Assembly: GCF_004854025.1 (NCBI RefSeq)
Contig: NZ_STGM01000001.1
Location: 248,001 to 312,000 of the forward strand
Reading direction: 5' to 3'
DNA: 64,000 nucleotides
Source: Microbacterium hydrothermale
GTDB lineage: Bacteria > Actinomycetota > Actinomycetes > Actinomycetales > Microbacteriaceae
Shown here piece by piece: positions 2,510 to 58,343 of the stretch. The position numbers and the translations under genes were made by a program. The notes below the pieces were generated by a model. It did no database searches and had not been told where the DNA came from. It was given only the letters and a program-made list of their open reading frames with translations. Numbering within the stretch: position 1 is the stretch's first letter; every line of letters begins with the position of its first letter.

Positions 2510-3295
2510 GTGTACGCAATGGAGCGCCAGAAGCTCATCGAGCGCGAACTGCGCGATGTCGGACGTGTCAGCGTCGTCGATCTCGCCCGTCGCTTCGACG
2601 TGACGACCGAGACGGTTCGTCGCGACCTCGATCGCCTCGAGAGCCTGGGCTCCCTTCGCCGCGTGCACGGCGGCGCCGTCGACATTGGTCGCGCCAGCAC
2701 CGCGGAATCCCCCCTCACGGAGCGTCGCGAGCGACACGGCGACGCGAAGCGCGCGATCGCCGCCGCCGCGGTGGACCTGCTCGGCCCCGACTTCCGCGGA
2801 TCGGTCTTCCTCGACGCGGGGACGACGCCGGCGGCGGTGGCCGCCCTGCTGCCCGACGCGCTGGGCGCGGGCATCGGCGGGGTCGAGGTCGTCACCCACT
2901 CGCTCGAGGCCGCCCACGTGCTCTCCGCCGACGATCGCCTGTCGCTCACCACCATCGGCGGACGCGTCCGCGGCGTCACCGCCGCCGCCGTCGGCGCGCA
3001 CACCGTGCGCACCATCGGTCAGCTGCGTCCCGACCTCGCCTTCGTCGGCACCAACGGCCTCAGCGCCGGGTTCGGCCTCAGCACGCCCGATCCCGACGAA
3101 GCAGCCGTCAAGGCCGCCATCATCCAATCGGCCCGACGCGTCGTCCTCGTCGCGGACGCGGCCAAGTTCGGAGAGGAACTGCTCGTGCGCTTCGCCCAGC
3201 TCGACGAGATCGATGTTCTCGTGACCGATGCGGCTCCGCCCGCCGACCTGGCCGAGGCCCTCGCCGACGCCGATGTCGAGGTGCGTGTCGCATGA
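2510..3295 (+). CDS. DeoR-family regulator of the fructose operon
   Basis: The 261-residue protein has an N-terminal DeoR helix-turn-helix (about residues 4-58, recognition helix around TETVRRDLDRLE) and a C-terminal DeoR sensor domain with the family motifs DAGTT, VTHS and TNG near the middle and end. These regulators are usually repressors that bind sugar phosphates. GTG 2510 is chosen because AAGGAG lies about five bases upstream; ATG 2519 is the alternative. The gene overlaps fruK by four bases (ATGA), so translation is coupled. By position it probably controls fruK, fruA and ptsH. Confidence 0.88.
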   Translation: MYAMERQKLIERELRDVGRVSVVDLARRFDVTTETVRRDLDRLESLGSLRRVHGGAVDIGRASTAESPLTERRERHGDAKRAIAAAAVDLLGPDFRGSVFLDAGTTPAAVAALLPDALGAGIGGVEVVTHSLEAAHVLSADDRLSLTTIGGRVRGVTAAAVGAHTVRTIGQLRPDLAFVGTNGLSAGFGLSTPDPDEAAVKAAIIQSARRVVLVADAAKFGEELLVRFAQLDEIDVLVTDAAPPADLAEALADADVEVRVA

Positions 3296-6656: not shown

Positions 6657-6704
6657 AACACCGGATGCCACGGGCCCCAGGGCTCGTGGCATCCGGTGTT
6701 TCCG
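6657..6704 (+). terminator. hairpin between ptsH and a convergent gene, built on a GGATGCC pair
   Basis: AACACCGGATGCCACG (6657-6672) pairs perfectly over 16 bp with CGTGGCATCCGGTGTT (6685-6700) around a 12-base loop. The arms hold GGATGCC and GGCATCC. It sits between converging genes and could end transcription from both sides. There is no long T-run beyond the GTGTT end. Confidence 0.75.
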
Positions 6705-8623: not shown

Positions 8624-8665
8624 ACGAGAAAGAGCCTCGACCGGATGGTCGGGGCTCTTTCTCGT
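8624..8665 (+). terminator. terminator after tRNA-Glu
   Basis: ACGAGAAAGAGCCTCGACC (8624-8642) pairs with GGTCGGGGCTCTTTCTCGT (8647-8665) with one G-T pair and a four-base loop. The right arm ends in CTTTCTCGTTG, a T-rich tail on the plus strand. It may also end the minus-strand DUF4349 transcript. Confidence 0.85.
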
Positions 8666-27035: not shown

Positions 27036-27728
27036 GTGACGCGTAACAACGTCGAGCGCTCAGCGCTCACCGAGAAGCTCGGGGTCGACATCGACCCCGA
27101 GCTTCTTTCTCTTGCCCTGACGCATCGTTCCTTCGCCTACGAGAACGGCGGCATCGCGCACAACGAGCGCCTCGAGTTCCTCGGTGACTCCGTGCTCGGC
27201 CAGGCGGTGACGGTGCGTCTGTTCACGCGGCATCCCGACCTCGACGAGGGAAGCCTCGCCAAGCGGCGTGCCAGCGTCGTCTCCACCGTCGCGCTGGCCG
27301 AGGTGGCCCGCACCATCGGCCTCGGGCCGCACGTGCGGCTCGGACGCGGCGAAGTGCTCACCGGCGGTAGCGACAAGGATTCGATCCTCGCCGACACGAT
27401 GGAGGCGCTCATCGGAGCGACGTTCCTGTCGGCGGGCCCCGACGCCGCGACCGCGATGGTGCTGCGTCTGGTCGAGCCGCTCCTCGCCGACCCCGAGCGC
27501 TACGGCGCGGCGATGGACCCGAAGACGAGCCTGCAGGAGATCGCGGCGCGACTCGGTCTGCCCGCCCCCGTGTACGCCGTGGACGCCACCGGCCCCGATC
27601 ACGATCGACGCTTCACGGCGACGGTGACCGTGGGCGATGTCGCGACGACGGGCGAGGGCACGAGCAAGAAGCAGGCCGAGATGGCCGCCGCCCTCACCGC
27701 GTGGCGCGAGCTCGACGCGCGTGCCTGA
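27036..27728 (+). CDS. rnc: ribonuclease III
   Basis: The 230-residue double-stranded RNA nuclease processes rRNA precursors and structured messages. The signature NERLEFLGDSVLG lies near residue 38, the second catalytic acid is in DTMEALIGA, and a C-terminal double-stranded RNA-binding domain begins near residue 155 (DPKTSLQEIAARLG to KKQAEMAAALTAW). GTG 27036 is ten bases after rpmF. The 3' end overlaps mutM by eight bases. Confidence 0.96.
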   Translation: MTRNNVERSALTEKLGVDIDPELLSLALTHRSFAYENGGIAHNERLEFLGDSVLGQAVTVRLFTRHPDLDEGSLAKRRASVVSTVALAEVARTIGLGPHVRLGRGEVLTGGSDKDSILADTMEALIGATFLSAGPDAATAMVLRLVEPLLADPERYGAAMDPKTSLQEIAARLGLPAPVYAVDATGPDHDRRFTATVTVGDVATTGEGTSKKQAEMAAALTAWRELDARA

Positions 27729-28631: not shown

Positions 28632-28679
28632 CGCCGGCATCCGTCGCCCCGGGCAGGCCTGCGGCGACGGATGCCGGCG
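28632..28679. terminator. hairpin between convergent mutM and GNAT genes, built on a GGATGCC pair
   Basis: CGCCGGCATCCGTCGCC (28632-28648) pairs perfectly over 17 bp with GGCGACGGATGCCGGCG (28663-28679) around a 14-base loop. It lies between two stop codons facing each other, so it probably works as a two-way terminator even though no T-run follows. Confidence 0.75.
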
Positions 28680-45827: not shown

Positions 45828-45859
45828 CGGATGCCGCGACCTCGAGGCCGCGGCATCCG
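45828..45859. terminator. hairpin between convergent trmD and map, built on a GGATGCC pair
   Basis: CGGATGCCGCG (45828-45838) pairs perfectly over 11 bp with CGCGGCATCCG (45849-45859) around a ten-base loop. It sits about 100 bases after trmD and 11 bases beyond the map stop. No T-run follows, so efficiency is uncertain. Confidence 0.65.
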
Positions 45860-47828: not shown

Positions 47829-47867
47829 GAACGCCCCGTGGATTTCACCACGGGGCGTTCGGCGTTT
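47829..47867 (+). terminator. intrinsic terminator after rplS
   Basis: GAACGCCCCGTGG (47829-47841) pairs perfectly over 13 bp with CCACGGGGCGTTC (47848-47860) around a six-base loop, followed by GGCGTTTT. It separates rplS from lepB. Confidence 0.85.
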
Positions 47868-56668: not shown

Positions 56669-57496
56669 ATGGCAAACTTCACGATCGCCGACATCAAGGC
56701 GCTGCGCGAGCAGCTCGGCACGGGCATGGTCGACACCAAGAAGGCGCTCGAAGAGGCTGACGGCGACGTCGAGAAGGCCGTCGAGATCCTGCGTCTCAAG
56801 GGCGCGAAGGGCAACGCGAAGCGTGCCGACCGCTCGACGAGCGAGGGCCTCGTGGTCGCTCGCGAGAACGCCGGCTCGGTCACGCTGCTCGAGCTCGCCT
56901 GCGAGACCGACTTCGTCGCCAAGAACGAGCGCTTCATCGCTCTGGCCGACAAGGTCGTCGACGCGGCCGCCGCCGCCGGCGCCGACTCGGTCGAGGCCGC
57001 TCTGGCCGCCGACGCCGAGGGCAAGACCGTCGAGCAGCTCATCTCCGACGAGGCCGCGATCATCGGCGAGAAGGTCGAACTCCGCCGCGTGCGCACGATC
57101 TCGGGCGACAAATTCGAGGTCTACCTTCACAAGACCAGCAAGGACCTGCCCCCGCAGGTCGGCGTGGTGCTCGCCTACACCGGTGACGACGCCGAGACCG
57201 CTCGCTCGATCGCGCAGCACATCTCGTTCGCGAACCCCTCGTACCTCACCCGCGACGCCGTGCCCGAGGCCGACGTCGAGAAGGAGCGCGAGATCGTCAC
57301 CGAGATCTCGCGCAACGAGGGCAAGCCCGAGGCCGCCCTGCCGAAGATCGTCGAGGGCCGCGTCAACGCGTTCTTCAAGCAGGTCGCCCTGCTCGACCAG
57401 GACTACGCGAAGGACAACAAGCTGTCCGTCGCCAAGGTCGCGTCCGACGCCGGTCTCACCCTGACCGACTTCGCCCGCTTCAAGGTCGGCGCGTAA
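56669..57496 (+). CDS. tsf: elongation factor Ts
   Basis: The 275-residue nucleotide-exchange factor recharges EF-Tu. The N-terminal UBA-like part MANFTIADIKALREQLGTGM and the ACETDFVAKNERF motif (near residue 75), which contacts EF-Tu, are present. AAGGAG lies ten bases before the ATG. An open frame runs upstream through the spacer, but its composition is not coding. A terminator follows the stop. Confidence 0.97.
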   Translation: MANFTIADIKALREQLGTGMVDTKKALEEADGDVEKAVEILRLKGAKGNAKRADRSTSEGLVVARENAGSVTLLELACETDFVAKNERFIALADKVVDAAAAAGADSVEAALAADAEGKTVEQLISDEAAIIGEKVELRRVRTISGDKFEVYLHKTSKDLPPQVGVVLAYTGDDAETARSIAQHISFANPSYLTRDAVPEADVEKEREIVTEISRNEGKPEAALPKIVEGRVNAFFKQVALLDQDYAKDNKLSVAKVASDAGLTLTDFARFKVGA

Positions 57497-57505
57497 GCAG
57501 TCGTG

Positions 57506-57540
57506 AAAGGCCCGGGATGCCACGGCATCCCGGGCCTTTT
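57506..57540 (+). terminator. intrinsic terminator after tsf, built on a GGATGCC pair
   Basis: AAAGGCCCGGGATGCC (57506-57521) and GGCATCCCGGGCCTTT (57524-57539) form a perfect 16-bp stem with two bases between, so the last pairs must open. The stem ends in TTTT. It holds GGATGCC and GGCATCC back to back. Confidence 0.93.
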
Positions 57541-57623: not shown

Positions 57624-58343
57624 GTGATCGATGAAGCCACCAAGCGCCGCCGGGTTCTGCTCAAGCTGTCGGGGGAGGCGTTCGGCGGAGGCCAGTTGGG
57701 TGTCAACCCCGACGTGGTCAGCCAGATCGCCCGTGAGATCGCCGAGGCGGTGGACCGGGTCGAGATCGCGATCGTGGTCGGCGGCGGCAATTTCTTCCGC
57801 GGCGCCGAACTCAGCCAGCGGGGCATGGACCGCGGGCGTGCCGACTACATGGGCATGCTCGGCACCGTGATGAACTCCCTCGCCCTCCAGGACTTCCTCG
57901 AGCAGGCGGGCGCGGCCACGCGCGTGCAGTCCGCGATCTCGATGACCCAGGTCGCCGAGCCTTACATTCCGCGTCGTGCGGTGCGGCACCTCGAGAAGGG
58001 GCGCGTCGTGATCTTCGGCGCCGGCGCGGGTCTGCCGTACTTCTCGACCGACACCGTCGCCGCCCAGCGGGCCCTGGAGATCGGCGCGACCGAGGTGCTC
58101 GTCGCGAAGAACGGCGTCGACGGCGTCTACACCGCCGACCCGCGCGTGGACCCCAGCGCCACCAAGCTCGACCACCTCACCTACAACGACGCCCTGCAGA
58201 AGGGGCTCAAGGTGGTCGATTCGACGGCGTTCAGCCTCTGCATGGACAACGGCATCGACATGCGCGTGTTCGGTATGGAGCCGGCCGGCAACGTCACCCG
58301 TGCCCTGCTCGGCGACGAGATGGGAACGCTCGTCACCGCGTGA
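57624..58343 (+). CDS. pyrH: UMP kinase
   Basis: The 239-residue amino-acid-kinase-family enzyme makes UDP from UMP. The motifs [15 protein letters not shown] at the start, [23 protein letters not shown] and [25 protein letters not shown] are characteristic. GTG 57624 is chosen from the start [16 protein letters not shown] (57594-57599) may be its -10 box, 24 bases upstream. It is followed by frr, its usual partner. Confidence 0.96.

Follow-up and report, generated by a model that had tools for sequence, protein, structure and literature searches.

GGATGCCR, a genome-wide word of Microbacterium hydrothermale that may work like a DNA uptake sequence

The genome of Microbacterium hydrothermale carries one short word, GGATGCC, mostly followed by a purine (GGATGCCR), far more often than its composition or its proteins predict, and codon choice is bent towards it. 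We put the probability at roughly 0.55 that GGATGCCR is a genome-wide self-identity word working in the manner of the uptake sequences found in Neisseriaceae and Pasteurellaceae. The word came to attention through four intergenic hairpins of a single window, and these hairpins are a by-product of its larger, genome-wide use.

Four hairpins built from GGATGCC pairs

The window is the whole 64,000 nt stretch that was analysed (C1:248001-312000; the genome comprises 18 contigs and 3.58 Mb). It contains four hairpins with perfectly paired stems (16, 17, 11 and 16 bp), in every one of which GGATGCC occurs together with its complement, and all four were found exactly where the original prediction had placed them. 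An independent gene caller again put three of them between convergent genes and the fourth, which had been described as following tsf with a T-run, between tsf and pyrH, with TTTT at its end. Three other hairpins of the window, named as lacking the motif (341-384, 8624-8665 and 47829-47867), are indeed free of GGATGCC. The features are as follows, with gene positions from our own gene caller and Pfam matches from a run on the eight genes that neighbour the hairpins.

796-62928, 45 on the plus strand and 54 on the minus strand: GGATGCC copies, 99 in all, mostly in genes
6657-6700, no strand assigned: hairpin between convergent genes, perfect 16 bp stem with motif pair, fold of -41.8 kcal/mol
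28632-28679, no strand assigned: hairpin between convergent genes, perfect 17 bp stem with motif pair, fold of -45.0 kcal/mol
45828-45859, no strand assigned: hairpin between convergent genes, perfect 11 bp stem with motif pair, fold of -24.4 kcal/mol
56669-57496, plus strand: tsf (EF-Ts; PF00889), the gene preceding the fourth hairpin
57506-57539, plus strand: hairpin in the tsf-pyrH gap, perfect 16 bp stem with GGATGCC/GGCATCC, TTTT at its end, fold of -31.0 kcal/mol
57624-58343, plus strand: pyrH (PF00696, amino acid kinase family)

The first hairpin has a gene for an HPr-domain protein on its left and a gene without a Pfam match on its right; the second lies between genes for an Fpg-type glycosylase and a GNAT protein, and the third between trmD and an M24 peptidase gene. 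The name pyrH rests on the gene's relatives and on its location, with tsf on one side and frr on the other. It served as the query for named relatives, and the protein it encodes shares 99% identity with its counterpart in Microbacterium sp. RU1D. The hairpin at 57506-57539 is the probable tsf terminator. A hairpin is present 3′ of tsf in most of the family loci viewed by eye. The motif pair occurs there only in the two closest relatives (L038 and L039), with a near form in Microcella (L057) and other hairpins in more distant loci.

A hairpin was scored where 11 bp or more paired perfectly around a loop of 2-34 nt. By this rule the window holds eight intergenic hairpins, four of them with the motif. 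In a sample of 464 kb of the same genome (400 kb plus the window), the motif is present in 9 of 53 intergenic hairpins and in none of the 16 hairpins within genes, and the window is therefore richer in motif hairpins than its genome. GGATGCC is nevertheless the commonest 7-mer of intergenic stems in this sample, with nine occurrences as against four for the next non-overlapping word. A check on the share of hairpins that hold the motif thus gave a divided answer: no other word is equally common in stems, but motif-free stems, of which there are 44, are commoner than those with the motif. Separately, a predicted gene contains, at 27073-27106, a motif-free hairpin whose 16 bp stem is perfect and whose loop measures 2 bp.

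Ordinary intrinsic terminators whose stems share a GC-rich word by chance would fit the hairpin that follows tsf in most family loci and the TTTT of 57506-57539. However, a T-run outside the perfect stem accompanies only one of nine motif hairpins, compared with 7 of 44 others, in the 464 kb sample; this rule counts bases outside the perfect stem only and hence misses the TTTT of 57506-57539. Moreover, the 802 copies of GGATGCC in the same sample fall mostly in genes (676), with 121 in intergenic DNA and 5 on edges. The copies inside genes contradict ordinary terminators as a full explanation, which we regard as very improbable. Some motif hairpins may terminate transcription, but the label of terminator signal suits GGATGCC less well than that of a genome-wide word which hairpins sometimes incorporate.

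Abundance, codon choice and pairing of the word

The 99 copies in the window compare with 15.0 expected under an order-2 Markov model. The whole genome has 6,126 copies, divided almost evenly between the strands (3,010 and 3,116), and within 40 kb blocks of one contig we likewise found no strand bias. Density in the 464 kb sample is 1.67 per kb in genes and 2.07 per kb between genes. At least one copy is found in 83% of 1 kb fragments and 97% of 3 kb fragments of this sample, which is enough for an uptake-sequence role. The base 3′ of GGATGCC is G or A in 758 of the 802 copies, and we therefore write the word as GGATGCCR.

Codon choice in genes was analysed by synonymous shuffling, since the reversed word, CCGTAGG, contains TAG and is a poor control. 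In a shuffle that preserves every protein and its codon usage, GGATGCC ranks first among 4,434 7-mers (676 copies against 175 expected; z 37.7), and it is again the top 7-mer (236 against 67) in a stricter shuffle of the first 160 kb that also preserves the bases flanking each codon. Codon pairs bear the same mark. Where the preceding codon ends in G, Ala-Ser is encoded by GCA-TCC in 168 of 437 cases (3.5 expected), compared with 11 of 622 after other bases (5.0 expected); Asp-Ala is encoded by GAT-GCC in 273 of 449 cases after G (31 expected) and in 37 of 1,050 after other bases (73 expected). Two synonymous shuffles and the codon-pair tables together rule out codon habit alone. The corresponding losses are shared out: for Ala-Ser after G, five of the six main alternatives stand at 0.31-0.64 of expectation and GCG-AGC at 0.97, and for Asp-Ala after G the alternatives stand at 0.45, 0.37 and 0.68. 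A loss spread over several alternatives speaks against a single mutable precursor. We also looked in genes, with the first of these shuffles, for an excess of one-mismatch forms, and the 21 one-letter neighbours of GGATGCC occur at 0.17-1.42 of expectation.

Copies of the word are paired in a preferred arrangement. Genome-wide, 148 inverted pairs with a gap of 0-20 were found where motif density predicts 55 (2.7-fold), whereas direct pairs at the same gaps number 56, half of the 110 expected (both strands). Allowing gaps of up to 40 in the 464 kb sample, we found that 9 of 20 inverted pairs between genes belong to longer stems, of 11 bp or more, compared with none of 27 pairs in coding sequence. 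Smaller samples of other genomes gave no clear excess of inverted pairs: 5 and 4 inverted against 4 direct in G114, the genome of the family with most copies; 5 and 0 inverted against 6 direct in five named Microbacterium loci; and no inverted pairs in G032, the genome of the genus poorest in GGATGCC.

At larger distances, of 41-200 bp, neighbouring copies alternate in direction, by 116 to 49 in the M. hydrothermale genome (L001-L020 plus the window) and by 59 to 33 in G114 (L134, L135 and L176-L180). The 22 control 7-mers show no such alternation (1,948 to 2,288), and it was not seen in a small sample of another genome, G018 (4 to 8).

A chromosome-organising protein that needs a binding site about every 600 bp would be in keeping with this alternation, with a mean spacing of 577 bp and with copies both in genes and between them. 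Against it, the spacing is uneven (CV 1.29), and a change of dialect, as described below, would require a housekeeping protein to change at thousands of sites. There is also no strand polarity in the 40 kb blocks of one contig, so that a KOPS-like guide for FtsK is rejected. We consider a site of this kind improbable.

Distribution, dialects and conservation

GGATGCC is unevenly distributed among relatives. The 35 genomes of the genus have 1,273 to 6,796 copies each, and 23 genomes from other families of the same order have 541 to 2,007. Across 150 Microbacteriaceae genomes the range is wide, with a maximum of 7,364 in G114 (3.9 Mb). Named examples include Microbacterium sp. 70-16 (7,067 in 3.1 Mb), M. 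jejuense (6,036), Microbacterium sp. RU1D (5,920), M. hominis (5,376), M. paludicola (1,881) and Microbacterium sp. Marseille-Q6965 (958), together with three Cryobacterium genomes (2,958 to 3,209) and two of Curtobacterium (1,264 and 1,330). Relative to an order-2 expectation in 20 kb loci, the word stands at 2.0 to 9.3 in eight named Microbacterium and at 0 to 2.2 in Streptomyces and Mycobacterium.

Some genomes of the family favour a different but similar word. G032 has fewer copies of GGATGCC than any other of the 35 genomes of the genus but abounds in GGATGGCC: 107 copies in genes against 23 expected (185 kb), and 1,938 genome-wide (983 and 955 per strand) against 134-278 in the 34 other genus genomes. 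In genus g26, represented by two genomes, the favoured word is AGGATCCG. G061 has 43 copies in genes against 8 expected and 1,735 genome-wide (898 and 837 per strand), and the second genome has 777; the next highest of the 150 family genomes are two of genus g56, with 558 and 510. One g56 genome, G091, favours CGGATCC (190 against 67 expected). G114 uses GGATGCC without the purine rule, and weaker words around CGGATG(C) in G068, G004 and G026 are leads. All dialect words have GGAT in common, and the main ones are GGAT...CC with 0, 1 or 2 bases in between.

The same search found no comparable word in samples of Marseille-Q6965 (G212) and Curtobacterium (G216), in samples of Streptomyces, Mycobacterium and Arthrobacter/Pseudarthrobacter, or in samples of several family members, a search that is underpowered for samples of 20-40 kb. 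The highest z in the named samples was 6.6, compared with 11.7 to 23.2 for the best words of five genomes. Two further observations concern individual genomes. An 8-mer, AAGCCGTA, occurs 14 times in 60 kb of G018 (L032-L034) against 0.6 expected and is perhaps a local repeat. In G061 (L137, L193-L196), runs of nine A/T occur 22 times in predicted genes against 1.9 expected, which may point to errors of gene calling or to slippery tracts.

In the two closest loci, of 86% and 85% identity, the motif is intact at 27 of 28 sites, compared with 259 of 620 for control words (Fisher p 2e-9) that were matched by GC pattern, not by codon position. In nine more distant loci the difference is small, with 40 of 114 motif sites intact against 614 of 2,427 for control words; motif positions therefore turn over.

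These results bear on the idea that a mutation or repair bias, aided by codon habit, makes and keeps a functionless word. A C-to-T change in GGACGCC would yield the word, and GGACGCC stands at 0.53 of expectation in genes. However, the codon loss falls on several alternatives, GGAC words are depleted generally, no single mutable precursor yields the dialects that carry inserted bases, and nearly all sites are intact in the two closest loci. Such a bias is, in our judgement, a poor candidate.

A motif-free stretch of 15.5 kb at C1:150326-165829 (L008 and L009) has 60% GC, compared with about 71% for the genome, and the starts of its ORFs suggest a surface-polysaccharide cluster. Genome density predicts about 27 copies of GGATGCC here, but the composition of the island itself predicts just 2.4, and one was counted, at its edge. 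The island is thus unenriched rather than avoiding the word, and the absence is weak by itself.

Five of seven phages likewise show no clear enrichment: Min1 (16 copies against 12.8 expected), SanaSana (2 against 5.2), Clayda5 (9 against 5.9), Sharkboy (5 against 5.2) and Lynlen (8 against 5.4). The other two, Efeko (L206; 19 against 3.7) and Scamander (L207; 23 against 3.7), both 17 kb Orlajensenviridae, carry GGATGCC at about host density. Neither follows the host purine rule, and their word use is odd overall, with extreme use of words such as CGCCGGC and several neighbour words absent.

A mark of self in DNA modification or defence, in which a methylase or phage-defence system reads the word and spares the cell's own DNA, is compatible with phages that are mostly unenriched and with two that are rich, and changes of a specificity subunit could be what the dialects track. 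The two rich phages, however, break the purine rule and are odd in their word use as a whole. Restriction targets are, moreover, avoided as a rule, not enriched. We therefore hold such a mark to be unlikely.

Likeness to known words and a possible route of uptake

The only uptake sequences known to us are those of two Gram-negative families, and what drives their evolution is unsettled. The DUS of Neisseriaceae are 10-12 bp long. GGATGCC resembles them in its thousands of copies, both coding and intergenic, in forming intergenic hairpins from inverted pairs and in varying by dialect around one core. Excerpts of PMC3630211 state that inverted pairs are present in all genomes with DUS dialects, that one dialect arose by a one-base insertion and that kingDUS has 5,918 copies in 2.4 Mb, a density like that of the 7,067 copies of GGATGCC in Microbacterium sp. 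70-16. The differences from DUS are an unrelated sequence, a length of 7-8 bp and a Gram-positive host. The USS of Pasteurellaceae, as described in excerpts of PMC1939737 and PMC6776037, is a frequent, non-palindromic word with dialects by clade and no preferred orientation along the chromosome; about 10% of copies are inverted repeats, and there are USS-rich and USS-poor phages (PMC6776037). GGATGCC has counterparts to all of these features in an unrelated sequence. The likeness to uptake sequences that had been proposed from the hairpins of the window thus extends to copy number, symmetry, hairpin pairs, dialects, conservation in close relatives and competence genes. It fails in one respect: one-mismatch forms of USS are in excess according to an excerpt of PMC1939737, whereas those of GGATGCC are not, which also sets the word apart from DUS.

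Literature searches for GGATGCC and GGCATCC returned unrelated matches only, and no uptake sequence in Actinomycetota is reported in the literature searched, a body that excludes most subscription journals and bioRxiv preprints. HIP1 of cyanobacteria is a very frequent short palindromic word whose role is unsettled. GGATGCC is asymmetric, although the core GGATCC of the G091 dialect is palindromic. A frequent form of HIP1, GGCGATCGCC, is tabulated in the excerpt of PMC1939737.

GGATGCC might also be a Chi-like recombination signal whose reader is an end-resection helicase-nuclease other than RecBCD, such as AdnAB. Chi of E. coli is strand-biased, and inverted pairing in hairpins is, to our knowledge, not a trait of Chi; GGATGCC is balanced between the strands, both in whole-genome counts and within 40 kb blocks of one contig. 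RecC (PF04257) was found in none of 150 family genomes, with an E. coli positive control that matched, and RecC absence together with strand symmetry rules out RecBCD and Chi as such. Still, both are short words over-represented in core genomes, and enrichment in the two small phages could shield their ends. Chi words are short, frequent and conserved, and according to a table of PMC1939737 their one-mismatch forms are just mildly over-represented. On balance we think a Chi-like role doubtful.

Returning to uptake, competence genes are present. ComEC occurs in 148 of the 150 family genomes and, being near-universal, does not track the motif and is of no use as a discriminator. In M. hydrothermale a ComEA-like protein (SLBB and HHH_3) adjoins it. 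A T2SSE-family match is found in all 150 genomes, but the best score in M. hydrothermale (8.7e-44) falls short of the PilB class of many others (about 1e-135 to 1e-142), and no PilB-type ATPase of that class was found in its genome. A Tad-like pilus is therefore the likelier partner, judging from these scores; a paper on Micrococcus luteus concerns Flp-pilus-dependent transformation (PMC4322843). A link between the motif and PilB-type ATPases was rejected, as copies per Mb are alike in 41 genomes with and 27 without (p 0.34) among the 68 family genomes of at least 2.4 Mb.

We propose that the competence apparatus would include a DNA-binding component with a preference for DNA bearing the word, perhaps ComEA or a subunit of a Tad/Flp pilus, and that DNA of the same species would consequently enter the cell and recombine more often. 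Such recombination would spread and repair GGATGCCR wherever protein sequence allows. Intergenic copies would often come to lie head to head, an arrangement that can also serve as a terminator hairpin, and lineages of Microbacteriaceae would have shifted the word (GGATGCC, GGATGGCC, AGGATCCG, CGGATCC) around a GGAT...CC core, as uptake dialects do. Several results count against the uptake reading, namely the near-universal ComEC, the missing PilB link, the lack of a one-mismatch excess, the unclear pairing in other genomes, the small conservation difference in distant loci, the two word-rich phages of one family and the several Microbacteriaceae in which no word was found.

We give about even odds to a broader proposal, that an uptake language spanning the family, with dialect switches inside a genus, arose independently in Microbacteriaceae; it would be the first of its kind in a Gram-positive phylum and would raise barriers to gene exchange between bacteria of soil and plants. 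Should GGATGCCR not serve uptake, another process would still set and maintain one word about 6,000 times per genome. If the uptake reading is true, the word would be a third, independent case of uptake sequences, with dialects across a large Gram-positive family, and would make possible comparative tests of the reader of the word, of dialect switching and of species isolation. GGATGCCR on donor DNA would then be a practical handle for the transformation of Microbacterium.
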